This document shows positions 55,356 to 63,332 of a DNA stretch of 64,000 nt, in pieces; the first letter of the stretch is position 1, and each line of letters starts with the position of its first letter. The DNA is from Promethearchaeota archaeon. Its GTDB lineage: Archaea; Asgardarchaeota; Thorarchaeia; Thorarchaeales; Thorarchaeaceae. The DNA lies in the NCBI GenBank assembly GCA_014728035.1, contig WJMJ01000131.1:117381-181380 (forward strand), in the 5' to 3' direction. The notes under the pieces were generated by a model. That model ran no database searches and had not been told where the DNA came from. It saw only the letters and a program-made list of their open reading frames with translations. The translations under genes were made by a program, and so were the position numbers.

Positions 55356-56633
55356 CTAATTCTTATGCAGTTTTGGAGCCGCAATGAAAGTCAAACCTTT
55401 CTTAGTTAGCTCTTCAGCTGTTCGGTTCAAAGCATGATGCTTGTCCAGATAATTTCTAAGCATCTTTGGCATATCTCCCGATTCGATAATTTCACTCTTA
55501 TCGCGGAAATAATCAAGGATATCACTGGGGTGATCACGAGTGACATCAATCTCAGGAATTCCTCCCTCATGTTTCGCACTTATATTCTTGACATGATCAG
55601 CTAATTCAACTAATTCTTCAGTACGGTCGTAGGGTTGACGTACAATAGATTTGTAGGTTTCAGTAATGTGATGTTCTAAGCGAACCACATCTTCAAACCC
55701 AAAATCGTCCCGAATGAAAGCTGCGAGTTCTATGGTGGATTTATCCACACTGTTTGATAGATTGAATCCAATAAGGGGAGTCGTACCATCAGGCCGACTA
55801 AATAATTTCGCGGTCAATAATGTCCAAAGACAAGCATATGGATTATCATTGCCCATGAATACAGAAATTTTGAACTCCAAATCAATACCTAATTTATACA
55901 GTATATAACCAACAAGAACACTTCCAGGATTGATGTTTAGAACTTGCTTTACCCCATAAGTTGTATAATAATGCAGAAATTCATCAGCCCATTTTAATAC
56001 ATAATCATTGGGCATGCCAACTCCACCAAAGTATCCAGTAATTGTTTCTGGTCCACCAAGATGAATATTTACAGGAGCTCCATCTGGGCCAGGTGCAGTC
56101 CCCTTGGTATCAAGAGTTTCAACGTAGGATGAACCTAAGATTTGCATTGCAGCAGCAAAAGCCACAATATCGTCATCTTGTGTCTGTTCCTTCATTTTTC
56201 TAACGCGGATAAATCGCCCAGGCATAAGTTCTTCCTTGTCAATTGCCTGCTTTGCCTGTTCAATAAGCCAAGGAAAATACTGACACGCACTTATCTCAAG
56301 AGTTACTGCAAAACTATCATCGAAGCTCATTGATTCTGCCTTATCACCCAAAACCTTCTGACGGAAATCTGAAATGCTAATGAAAGCACCTTTATCACGC
56401 TGTTCTTGAAGCCATTTCAAGTCAGCCAAGTAAGGAGATTTCTTCTTCTCCAAAACAGCAAGTAGGTGTTCCAACCTGCGAGCTTCTGCAGCTTTCTTAT
56501 TGATTTCTTCTACCCCTCCGTATTTTTCAATTATCTTCAGTAATTCGGTAATCAGAGGGTTATCCTCATTCAGGAGAAAATCGTTTATTGCTTCGAGTTG
56601 TGTAGCATCGATTCTTAGCTTTTCTCTGTCCAT
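55356..56633 (-). CDS. Conserved protein of unknown function, alpha/beta
   Basis: About 425 residues from MDREKLRIDATQLEAINDFL (an upstream ATG adds five). A helical N-terminus is followed by a region with alternating strands and helices: GVKQVLNINPGSVLVGYILY, LEFKISVFMGNDNPYACLW, LIGFNLSNSVDKSTIELAAF. This suggests a TIM-barrel-like or cobalamin-enzyme-like fold, but no diagnostic motif (B12 DxHxxG, radical-SAM Cys, PLP Lys) is visible. I do not recognise it. Confidence 0.6.
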   Translation of the reverse strand: MDREKLRIDATQLEAINDFLLNEDNPLITELLKIIEKYGGVEEINKKAAEARRLEHLLAVLEKKKSPYLADLKWLQEQRDKGAFISISDFRQKVLGDKAESMSFDDSFAVTLEISACQYFPWLIEQAKQAIDKEELMPGRFIRVRKMKEQTQDDDIVAFAAAMQILGSSYVETLDTKGTAPGPDGAPVNIHLGGPETITGYFGGVGMPNDYVLKWADEFLHYYTTYGVKQVLNINPGSVLVGYILYKLGIDLEFKISVFMGNDNPYACLWTLLTAKLFSRPDGTTPLIGFNLSNSVDKSTIELAAFIRDDFGFEDVVRLEHHITETYKSIVRQPYDRTEELVELADHVKNISAKHEGGIPEIDVTRDHPSDILDYFRDKSEIIESGDMPKMLRNYLDKHHALNRTAEELTKKGLTFIAAPKLHKN

Positions 56634-56795
56634 TTCAAGACCATCCAATATGTTCGACTATTGATAATAAGCCAAGATAGCCCAATACTTGATTATTAAA
56701 AAACGATTCTGAAAGAACATTAAACATGTAATTGGTATAAAAATTAAATTGTTGAAAGTGAAACTGAGCATTACTGAAATACGTTCGCAAATGAA

Positions 56796-57383
56796 TCATT
56801 CAGCTGTCTCGAATACTTGTAATTCTTTGAAAGAATCACCATCTCCAAATATTGGAGATATATCACGAAGATATGAGCGAAACTTTGGACCAACTAATCC
56901 TACAAAAATTCCACCAACAGTCACTTGAATCCAATTGATACCAAGAAGTTCTTCCCAGGCTGCAATTTCACCAAACATAATGCTCTCAAAGAAAAAATAT
57001 CCCGCCAACATAGCTAAAGCACCAAGAACAATTCCAATAACATCCATGATACTAAGGTTATGAGACCTTCTCGCCTGTAGACTGAAGGCACCCACGATGA
57101 ACCCCTCCAGACCCTTGACAAGCAAGGTGATTGGAGCAAAAGGTATGAAGCCCAAAGCAACATCTGCCATCGCAGATCCAAATCCACCAGCTATTAGACC
57201 ACCTATTGGACCTAGAAGAAGACCACTGAGCATCACCATTGTATCCCCAATATTTAGATATCCAGAGGTTGTTGGAAAAGGAATTGCAACAACCGCAGTT
57301 ACAACAGTGGTAAGAGCTGTAAATAACGCCAATAAGACGATATACAATGTGGAATTTGTGGTGCTTGAGCTAATTTTTTCCAT
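56796..57383 (-). CDS. ECF transporter S component
   Basis: 195 residues, five to six membrane helices, with SGYLNIGDTMVMLSGLLLGP, IGGLIAGGFGSAMADVALGF and APITLLVKGLEGFIVG, typical of energy-coupling-factor substrate-capture proteins for vitamins. The substrate is not readable. It is divergent from a threonine-synthase-like regulator, 80 bases away, which may control it; a PLP- or amino-acid-related compound is one idea. Confidence 0.85.
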   Translation of the reverse strand: MEKISSSTTNSTLYIVLLALFTALTTVVTAVVAIPFPTTSGYLNIGDTMVMLSGLLLGPIGGLIAGGFGSAMADVALGFIPFAPITLLVKGLEGFIVGAFSLQARRSHNLSIMDVIGIVLGALAMLAGYFFFESIMFGEIAAWEELLGINWIQVTVGGIFVGLVGPKFRSYLRDISPIFGDGDSFKELQVFETAE

Positions 57384-57443
57384 ATGAATTACTCACCGAG
57401 TTTAAACAAGTCATGCCTCTAAACCGCAATATATAACTTTGGG

Positions 57444-57455
57444 CCTATATATAGG
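57444..57455. promoter_or_regulatory. Operator-like palindrome CCTATATATAGG
   Basis: Perfect 12-bp palindrome in the 80-bp divergent promoter between the ECF S gene and the PLP-fold/HTH fusion, between the TATA-like AATATATAAC and the start codon. Confidence 0.5.
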
Positions 57456-57469
57456 TCATAATAATGACC
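57454..57469. promoter_or_regulatory. Palindrome GGTCAT-AATA-ATGACC over the start codon
   Basis: Six-base perfect arms; the second arm contains the ATG of the HTH fusion gene. It suggests autoregulation by a dimeric HTH. Confidence 0.5.
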
Positions 57470-58960
57470 TCTTTCATAAAAGAAATGTTCTGCACCGAAT
57501 GTGAAAACAGGTACTCTGAAAAAACACAGCGAAAAATTTGCAATATCTGTAAAGAAGTATTGGAAGTCAGATACAATTACGAAGCAGCAAAAGAATCCAT
57601 GACGAAAAGGACAATCAAAAAAAGACCAAGAGGTATTTGGAGGTATTTTGAGCTTTTACCACTAATAGACAGGAGAAATGTCATTTCTCTTGGAGAAGGA
57701 CAAACCTTTCTGCATCATTGCAATTCACTTTCTGAAAATCTAGGTATTCCCAATCTCTTATTGAAGAACGAAACAACCAATCCTACAGGCTCATTTTTAG
57801 ACAGAGGAAGTAGTGTTGAAATATCAATAGCCAAAGAAAGAAAACAATACAAGATCTGTTGTGGTTCAACAGGGAATCTTGCTGCTTCTGTTGTTGCTTA
57901 TGCTGCTAAAGCGTCAGTTAGTTCAAAGGTATACATGGCACAGAAGGGGCGTATTGATATTGGAAAGTTCTATCAAATATTGGCATATGGTGCTGATGTT
58001 GAGATTGTAAAGACCAGAAAAGAAGCTATCTCGCTTGCATCACAAAAAGAGCCGATTTGTCATTCAATAACCTCATACAATCCACATTTCTTGGAAGGGA
58101 CGAAAACACTTGTCTTTGATCTTTGTGAACAACTAGACTGGAAAACGCCAGATTGGATAATTACTCCAATGGGAAGTGGTGGAAATATTTCAATGATCTG
58201 GAAAGGAATACTTGAACTTCAAGAAATGGGATTAATTGGATCAGAAACACCTAAACTAATTGGGACACAGGTGGAAGGTATTTCTCCAATAGTGGACGCA
58301 TTCAAAAACGGTCAAAAAACGGTAAGACCCTCTAGTGGAAAACCCAATCTTGCAATGGATATTGGAGTTGCAGAACCGGTATGTGGAAATAAGGCATTAG
58401 AGGCAATTAGAAAATCAAAAGGACTGGCAATTGATTTGACAGATAAAGAAATCATACAAAGTGTTAGAGACCTTGCCAGAAAAGAGGGAATATTTGCAGA
58501 ACCTGCATCAGCCACAACAATTGCTGCACTAAGAAATCTAGTAGCAGAACAAGTAATCAACCCAAATGATGTAGTGGTGTGTATGATAACAGGTACGGGG
58601 CTGAAATCACCAGAGATAGCTGAATCTTTTGTGCAAGGACGTAAAGATATTGGACATCTTCTAAGTAAATTTGAAGGACGAAAGTATACTACAGAGATTG
58701 GACGAACAAAAGTCTGTATTCTCAGATTACTTTCTCTAACAGATTCATACGGGTATGCTATTTGGAAAAACCTGTCAGAATCATATGGAATACAGATTTC
58801 AATCCCAAGTGTCTATCAGCATCTTACTGAACTTTCAAGAGGTGGATTGATTGTAGAAATTAAAACAATACTATCCCCAGAAAAGAGAGTTAGAAAATTC
58901 TATGACTTGACCGAGAGGGGGAGATGGACACTTGCTCAAATTGAGAAGATATCTGAATAG
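57464..58960 (+). CDS. Threonine-synthase-like pseudoenzyme fused to a PadR-type winged helix
   Basis: 498 residues. An N-terminal zinc ribbon (FCTECENRYS, ICNICKEVLE) and the fold-type II body match archaeal threonine synthase: CCGSTGNLAASVVAYAAKA, PMGSGGNIS, CMITGTGLKSPE. The Schiff-base lysine in the family motif SFKDRG is Leu112 here (NPTGSFLDRGSS), so normal PLP chemistry is excluded. Residues 413-498 form a PadR-type winged helix (RTKVCILRLLSLTDSYGYAI, VYQHLTELSRGGLI, YDLTERG). It is probably a ligand-sensing regulator derived from an enzyme, analogous to but distinct from MocR regulators. Palindromes overlap its start, and it is divergent from an ECF S component. Confidence 0.85.
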   Translation: MTSFIKEMFCTECENRYSEKTQRKICNICKEVLEVRYNYEAAKESMTKRTIKKRPRGIWRYFELLPLIDRRNVISLGEGQTFLHHCNSLSENLGIPNLLLKNETTNPTGSFLDRGSSVEISIAKERKQYKICCGSTGNLAASVVAYAAKASVSSKVYMAQKGRIDIGKFYQILAYGADVEIVKTRKEAISLASQKEPICHSITSYNPHFLEGTKTLVFDLCEQLDWKTPDWIITPMGSGGNISMIWKGILELQEMGLIGSETPKLIGTQVEGISPIVDAFKNGQKTVRPSSGKPNLAMDIGVAEPVCGNKALEAIRKSKGLAIDLTDKEIIQSVRDLARKEGIFAEPASATTIAALRNLVAEQVINPNDVVVCMITGTGLKSPEIAESFVQGRKDIGHLLSKFEGRKYTTEIGRTKVCILRLLSLTDSYGYAIWKNLSESYGIQISIPSVYQHLTELSRGGLIVEIKTILSPEKRVRKFYDLTERGRWTLAQIEKISE

Positions 58961-59053: not shown

Positions 59054-59428
59054 ATGAGTTGGATTCAAACTGATGATTGGAAAAACGAAAAACATGTACC
59101 TGTAATTGAAATCGAGAAAAAAGGAGATAACTTGTATCATATCATTATCTCAGTAGGAAAGGAAATACCCCATCCTAACACAACGGCACACCATATCAAA
59201 TGGGCAGATGCATTCTTTTTGCCAGAAGGAGAGAAATTCCCTGTTGAGATAGGCTATTGTACCTTTGATCACCATGGCGAATCGACAAAAGGAGCGGATA
59301 CAAGCAAAATGTACTCTGAGCCTTATGCAGTATTTGCTTTCAAAACCGAAAAGCCAGGAACAATAATGGCCACTTCATATTGCAACATTCACGGCCTTTG
59401 GAAAAGCGAAACTAAACTCAAGTTATAG
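59054..59428 (+). CDS. Superoxide reductase (neelaredoxin class)
   Basis: 124 residues without the desulforedoxin domain. The iron-site ligands are visible: KHVPVIE, PHPNTTAHHIKW (two of the His) and SYCNIHGLW (Cys and His). It reduces superoxide to peroxide, which the rubrerythrin-like protein at 54.8 kb could remove. GAGGAAAGAG precedes the ATG; a GGGCA..TGCCC hairpin lies in the leader at 59007-59027. Confidence 0.92.
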   Translation: MSWIQTDDWKNEKHVPVIEIEKKGDNLYHIIISVGKEIPHPNTTAHHIKWADAFFLPEGEKFPVEIGYCTFDHHGESTKGADTSKMYSEPYAVFAFKTEKPGTIMATSYCNIHGLWKSETKLKL

Positions 59429-62474: not shown

Positions 62475-63332
62475 ATGACAGCATCCAGAACTGCAATAAA
62501 GGAAAAGATACTCTTAATTTTAGACCGGATGCCATGTCATGGATATGATTTGCTCGATTCATTAAACGGATATCATCGAAATCTAAGACTAACAACACTG
62601 TATAGATGGCTTCATGAAATGGAATCAGAGGGTCTTATTATTAGTTCAATGGAACCAGGTCTCACAGGTCCCAAACGCCGAGTATATCATCTTGGTCCAA
62701 GAGGAGAGTCAAAGCTTCGAGAGATTCTAAGAAGTGCAATAGAGGTCTTACTTCATTTCTTTAGTGCATATAGAGGATTCCTAACTGAAGACATCCAAGA
62801 TAATTTTGAAAAAGAAATACAAGCATCTTCATCGGGGAGAATCTTGCTAGTAGCTAATCCAAGATTAAATGAACCCATTATCAATATCATAAGATATCTT
62901 CTTACAAAATGCAGTAACAAATCAATTGATGCCATGGGTGATGTGGGATTGCTTAGAGTCTATGAAATCGACTACCGACAAGTGGAGGGAGTTGCACATG
63001 ATATGCCAGTTTCTAGTAACCGTTATTCGGAGATCTGGTTGAGCGGCACCTCAGATGCTAAAATGCTACCAATAATAATTGCAGAGTGTAAAAGGGCTCT
63101 AAAACCGGGAGGAGTTTTACGTATAATCGCACCATTTGTGTTTTTTGATGAGCCAACCGAACCAACACTAAGTGAATTCATTCGTGTTACGTCAGTACAA
63201 CTTTTTCCCGATTTGGGAATAGTAGAAGGCACGGAATTATCAAGTATTATCAATGAGCAGTTCCAGGATTATGGTATATCTGAAGTATTTCCGGGTTTGG
63301 TTTTATTTTGGGCGGTAAAAAATAAGATGTAG
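62475..63332 (+). CDS. PadR-type HTH fused to a methyltransferase-like domain
   Basis: 285 residues. Residues 1-80 are a PadR-type winged helix (CHGYDLLDSLNGYHRNLRLT, LYRWLHEMESEGLIISSMEP, RRVYHLGPRGESKLREIL). Residues about 115-285 resemble a Rossmann methyltransferase: GRILLVANPRLNEPIINIIR in the motif I area but without the glycine-rich GxGxG, YSEIWLSGTSDAK, and ECKRALKPGGVLRIIAP. With the binding motif altered it may sense rather than use SAM. It is the second regulator-enzyme fusion in the window. ATATTATATTATAAATT upstream is the likely TATA element. Confidence 0.7.
   Translation: MTASRTAIKEKILLILDRMPCHGYDLLDSLNGYHRNLRLTTLYRWLHEMESEGLIISSMEPGLTGPKRRVYHLGPRGESKLREILRSAIEVLLHFFSAYRGFLTEDIQDNFEKEIQASSSGRILLVANPRLNEPIINIIRYLLTKCSNKSIDAMGDVGLLRVYEIDYRQVEGVAHDMPVSSNRYSEIWLSGTSDAKMLPIIIAECKRALKPGGVLRIIAPFVFFDEPTEPTLSEFIRVTSVQLFPDLGIVEGTELSSIINEQFQDYGISEVFPGLVLFWAVKNKM

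Follow-up and report, generated by a model that had tools for sequence, protein, structure and literature searches.

The window, the 64,000-nucleotide stretch of thorarchaeal DNA analysed here, carries at positions 57464-58960 (+) a gene for a 498-residue protein in which a degenerate threonine synthase (PALP domain) is fused to a PadR-type winged helix. This protein is quite probably a threonine-synthase-derived PadR regulator that has lost catalysis, senses PLP or another vitamin B6 vitamer, binds a palindrome and controls B6 uptake or synthesis. It is probable, if a little less so, that it represents an undescribed and widespread archaeal class of regulators, in which a dead fold-type II enzyme binds PLP non-covalently and represses B6 genes through a palindrome overlapping the promoter, independently of MocR/PdxR, and which is mislabelled as threonine synthase. 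We found no answer in the literature to how archaea regulate vitamin B6. Nor did we find a description of a threonine synthase-PadR or fold-type II transcription regulator, in a coverage that most subscription journals fall outside. Here, a candidate regulator, a candidate operator and predicted target genes for archaeal B6 are named together, in two phyla. The family also suggests convergence, in that PLP enzymes of two unrelated folds would each have given rise to a PLP-linked regulator.

The domain layout agrees with the preliminary description, which had placed a PadR-type winged helix behind a threonine-synthase-like body. The PALP (fold-type II) domain, which we propose as the PLP-sensing module, covers residues 74-377 (57683-58594 (+); Pfam 205 bits), and the winged helix covers residues 419-491 (58718-58936 (+); PF03551, 47.9 bits against a cut-off of 27). 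A zinc-ribbon-like Cys4 motif at the N-terminus (C10-C13-C26-C29; 57491-57550 (+)) is invariant in 27 aligned fusions. The protein matches TIGR00260 at 205.9 bits, against a cut-off of 167.1. In the open reading frame, the motif that normally reads SFKDRG appears as NPTGSFLDRG, and alignment to Thermus thermophilus threonine synthase (1uim) places Leu112, encoded by TTA at 57797-57799 (+), on the K of that motif, the Schiff-base Lys61. This replacement had been noted in the preliminary description and is borne out by both the alignment and the relatives. A read error at the lysine codon was ruled out because SFLDRG recurs in a same-genus relative and the position is Leu or Ile family-wide. The position of T. 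thermophilus Arg160 is occupied by Phe209 (58088-58090 (+)). An AlphaFold2 model built from the single sequence reached a pLDDT of 33 and was discarded.

The same domain pair is widespread, as the preliminary description had proposed to check. A genome search found about 28 full-length fusions among 59 related genomes. A scan of contigs gave a single distant stand-alone relative, which became the centre for the search of a second phylum; this phylum, represented by 398 genomes, was reached via a Marine Group I thaumarchaeote and searched with PRK05638, yielding dozens more fusions. In total, the analysis covered 93 fusions of nearly full length, drawn from two archaeal phyla, and 13 stand-alone homologues.

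The residues needed for catalysis and those predicted to line the cofactor site have fared very differently in these proteins. The lysine is missing in 89 of the 93 fusions and present in 13/13 stand-alone homologues. The fusions carry at this position Arg (54), Ile (15), Leu (12), Lys (4), Met (3), Val (2), or Asn, Phe or Thr (1 each). Arg160 and Thr88 of the T. thermophilus enzyme hold the substrate phosphate. In the 1uim alignment, the first of these is Arg in 0/93 fusions against 12 of 13 stand-alone homologues, and Thr has been lost from the second in 89/93. Predicted PLP contacts are retained nearly throughout (Asn138 in 92/93, Gly237 in 92/93, Gly239 in 93/93 and Thr376 in 88/93). The loss of lysine, arginine and threonine, taken with the retention of these contacts, argues that the fusion family gave up the reaction and kept the cofactor pocket. 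The expectation that the lysine would always be lost thus holds for 89 fusions and fails for four (4/93), in which it is intact, an outcome that the preliminary description had named as counting against its reading. All four have lost both Arg160 and Thr88, and since they lack the substrate arginine they do not restore an enzymatic reading; they may bind PLP covalently. These lysine keepers are loci L163, L170, L075 and L076, the last two of which have an S component nearby.

In a quick, midpoint-rooted tree of the PALP domain only, a branch with support 83 sets the stand-alone proteins apart from the rest. Two groups can be told apart among the fusions: a hydrophobic group, which includes the window protein, and an Arg group, which includes the four lysine keepers. 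This topology is suggestive only, and would fit a single fusion event with the lysine lost later, or regained in small lineages.

The gene next to the fusion is remarkably constant. Divergent to the fusion, at 56796-57383 (-), lies an ECF-transporter S component of the PdxU/HmpT family (PF07155, 108.8 bits), its predicted target. Of 95 fusion loci, 64, spread over both phyla, have a PF07155 S component no more than three genes away. In most related loci the two genes are divergent, and in most of the others the S component lies downstream of the fusion. One further S component, at L064, was overlooked by ORF calling and seen on re-inspection; it comes on top of the 64. In 29/95 loci there is no linked S component or pdxST, in some of them because contigs end. 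One locus (L121) has the order fusion, S component, ABC ATPase and a 248-residue protein resembling a membrane T component. Three EcfT-family genes in the window genome could serve the S component.

Several lines of evidence connect this S component with vitamin B6. PF07155/COG4720 includes the B6 transporters PdxU and PdxU2/HmpT, which account for two of the three that a 2023 survey lists as characterised (PMC9997740). Against solved structures, the archaeal S-component profile has a sole significant match, 4HZU chain S (E 1.5e-25). This is HmpT, for which pyridoxamine is the reported cargo (PMC4860826). Of the six conserved pocket positions of HmpT, the archaeal proteins retain four, namely Glu41 (as Asp or Glu), Tyr120, Asn140 and Gln143, and differ at two, His84 and Gln87 being replaced by Lys and Glu (H84K, Q87E). 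We infer that the archaeal S component carries a B6 vitamer.

In two lineages, the fusion instead adjoins pdxS-pdxT, encoding PLP synthase, which is divergent at L062 and downstream at L067. Archaea have been reported with the pdxS-type pathway only (PMC9997740). None of the 37 genomes of the window's family (0/37) contains pdxS. Among the 398 genomes of the second phylum, pdxS was found in 6 of the 68 fusion carriers among the matches listed, compared with 180 of 330 others, a depletion with a Fisher value of 3e-13 that ignores relatedness.

An operator candidate lies between the two divergent genes. The preliminary description had pointed to palindromes at 57444-57469. One of these, CCTATATATAGG at 57444-57455 (GCCTATATATAGGT in context), is conserved across genera, whereas the other, GGTCATAATAATGACC at 57454-57469, is not conserved and is accepted as a chance palindrome. 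The conserved palindrome has a conserved upstream partner, TATATAA at 57430-57436, which is probably a TATA box combined with a degenerate operator half. Among relatives, the divergent intergenic regions share ATATATAA, followed after 6-7 bases by GCCTATATATAGGC directly before the fusion start. Within one mismatch, CCTATATATAGG occurs at 18 of the 19 family fusion loci with readable upstream DNA, and at the nineteenth (L061) the sequence is CTTATATATAAG, in which both arms have changed together. The exact 13-mer GCCTATATATAGG is present in 17 of 59 genomes; 14 of these belong to the family and have it there only before the fusion gene, and the other sites lie before the fusion in one other family and in three unrelated places. 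No such palindrome turned up in the Arg-type fusions.

Loss of the regulator is accompanied by loss of the site. Twelve family loci have the S component and no detected fusion, and the palindrome, within one mismatch, is found at 0/12 of them (Fisher about 1e-7 or lower, relatedness ignored). In at least eight of the twelve genomes, desulfoferrodoxin is directly beside the S component, as though the fusion gene had been excised, and the loci resemble natural deletions that removed the regulator along with its site. For the palindrome-bearing loci, shuffled upstream regions matched the observed score in less than 0.5% of trials. A chance origin of CCTATATATAGG was therefore rejected on the strength of its conservation, its absence with fusion loss, and the shuffles. 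At L062, the palindrome, with one mismatch, is located between pdxS and the fusion in a fuller form, TATAGG-N6-CCTATATA, and so links the S component and the B6 synthase through a shared type of operator.

Taken together, the fusion is best read as a locally acting repressor, one that would sense PLP and control B6 uptake or synthesis. Threonine synthase would have been fused to a C-terminal PadR winged helix and would then have lost catalysis. The PALP domain would bind PLP, or a close B6 vitamer, as a signal, and would do so non-covalently because the Schiff-base lysine is gone in most members. The winged helices, presumably those of a dimer, would contact CCTATATATAGG together with the upstream TATATAA/TATAGG half. 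TATATAA stands about 30 bases before the fusion start codon, where a TATA box would be expected, with the palindrome in the gap between the two. A dimer bound there would obstruct the promoters on both sides. With ample PLP, the complex would cover these promoters, switching off the S component or pdxST as well as its own gene. Economy suggests this direction of control, with PLP as co-repressor. Very probably, what the protein senses is PLP or some other B6 vitamer and not a threonine-pathway metabolite, because the Arg and Thr for the substrate phosphate have disappeared and the genes linked to the fusion are those of a B6-type S component or pdxST.

Other vitamins and metabolites should be weighed against this proposal. 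It is conceivable, though unlikely, that ligand and cargo are related to thiamine (HMP or thiamine itself), in which case the PALP pocket would now accommodate a pyrimidine. HmpT was originally named for hydroxymethylpyrimidine, and an AIR-synthase-family protein, more HypE-like than ThiL-like, follows the S component at many second-phylum loci (L128, L129, L146, L161 and others). The window genome, in addition, has no match to PF08543, the pyridoxal/HMP kinase family, which is present in 14/14 control genomes; salvage of unphosphorylated B6 would therefore need another kinase. However, the AIR-synthase-family protein scores under both curated cut-offs and is closer to HypE, and HmpT itself was found with pyridoxamine (PMC4860826). 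The retained PLP-site residues, the depletion of pdxS in fusion carriers, and the adjacency of pdxS-pdxT to the fusion in two lineages, one of them sharing the palindrome, all favour B6 over thiamine.

Still less probable is a sensor of phosphohomoserine or threonine that controls threonine synthesis. Such a role would suit a regulator descended from threonine synthase, and an intact threonine synthase (SFKDRG) is divergent at or near the fusion in about eight second-phylum loci (L136, L137, L144, L149, L150, L153, L154 and L112). These neighbouring paralogues may instead be leftovers, and are possibly a trace of the original duplication. Against such a role, Arg160 is lost in 93/93 and Thr88 in 89/93 fusions, and the recurrent partner is the B6-type S component, or pdxST in two lineages. 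The earlier suggestion of an enzyme-derived sensor on fold-type II, for a threonine-pathway metabolite or PLP, consequently stands in part: the sensor is separate from MocR/PdxR and the genome has intact threonine-synthase genes, but a threonine-pathway ligand is disfavoured. The check for a separate intact threonine synthase in this genome gave two threonine-synthase-like genes with the lysine intact (L011 and L012, both SFKDR) in a draft assembly of 8.5% estimated contamination, and L012 also retains the substrate-phosphate arginine.

Regulation of riboflavin, or of another vitamin carried by a PF07155 transporter, is very improbable: the Pfam title of the family is 'riboflavin transporter, S component', but no solved structure other than the B6-linked HmpT matches the S components significantly, the sensor is without a flavin fold, and the pdxST linkage points elsewhere. 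Least credible of all is that the protein is still an active enzyme, threonine synthase or a PLP enzyme akin to it, whose DNA-binding tail is a mere accessory. The name of PRK05638 and the lysine of four fusions might suggest this, but no Schiff-base lysine is present in 89/93 fusions, the substrate arginine is present in 0/93, and the window genome has other intact threonine-synthase-like genes.

The database name nevertheless has practical consequences. NCBIfam PRK05638, named 'threonine synthase', spans the fusion layout and aligns over residues 8-491, the whole of the window protein. Its cut-off is exceeded in 2 of 59 genomes, and an Arg-type fusion (L041) is above it. We flag an annotation error because this curated model passes such fusions as threonine synthase, and the label corrupts metabolic reconstructions. 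The fusion shares with threonine synthase (ThrC; PRK05638, PRK08197, TIGR00260) its sequence family, the zinc-ribbon-like N-terminus, the fold motifs and the predicted PLP-site residues. It differs in mostly lacking the Schiff-base lysine, in always lacking the substrate-phosphate arginine, and in bearing a PadR domain. Judged by the two defining residues, both of which were looked for and found wanting, the fusion is not a threonine synthase.

The closest functional analogue is MocR/PdxR. Both types pair an enzyme-derived sensor, in the archaeal proteins a putative PLP sensor, with a winged helix, and both are linked to pdxST and pdxU-type genes and to local repeated or palindromic operators (PMC5320631), the archaeal site being a candidate. 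A bacterial PdxR regulon comprises pdxST, pdxK and pdxU, and MocR regulators have been reported absent from archaea (PMC5320631). MocR/PdxR proteins, however, combine an N-terminal GntR winged helix with a fold-type I aminotransferase, in contrast to the C-terminal PadR domain, the fold-type II threonine-synthase domain and the mostly lost lysine of the archaeal proteins. The fusion would work like MocR/PdxR, but it is not a member, having neither the GntR domain nor fold-type I when tested for both.

Among archaeal systems, ThiR-type thiamine regulators consist of an HTH and a ThiN enzyme domain. They are likewise vitamin regulators derived from an enzyme of vitamin metabolism, but with another fold, vitamin and HTH; the parent of the fusion uses a cofactor and does not make one. 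From the PadR family (PF03551), the fusion has a winged helix scoring above the Pfam cut-off, whereas ordinary PadR proteins are without an enzyme-derived domain of about 400 residues. The partner gene, in turn, resembles PdxU/PdxU2 (HmpT) in its PF07155 membership, its best solved match (4HZU_S) and four of six pocket positions, and departs from HmpT at H84 and Q87, which are Lys and Glu in the archaeal S components.

The surroundings of the fusion offer several further observations. One clade has the fusion following gatD-gatE, the Glu-tRNA(Gln) amidotransferase genes, with no S component nearby (L167 and, by layout, L132/L147). Directly downstream of the window fusion, at 59054-59428 (+), is a desulfoferrodoxin-like gene, conserved in 16 of 37 regions. 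On the other side, the gene at 55356-56648 (-) encodes a 430-residue protein with no Pfam or NCBIfam match, which is conserved beside the S component in 16/37 regions and in most of the loci without the fusion. Finally, the window contains a second PadR protein, encoded at 62475-63332 (+), with 285 residues, a PadR domain at residues 12-83 and a C-terminal part that shows a weak likeness to Methyltransf_11 (E 0.05).
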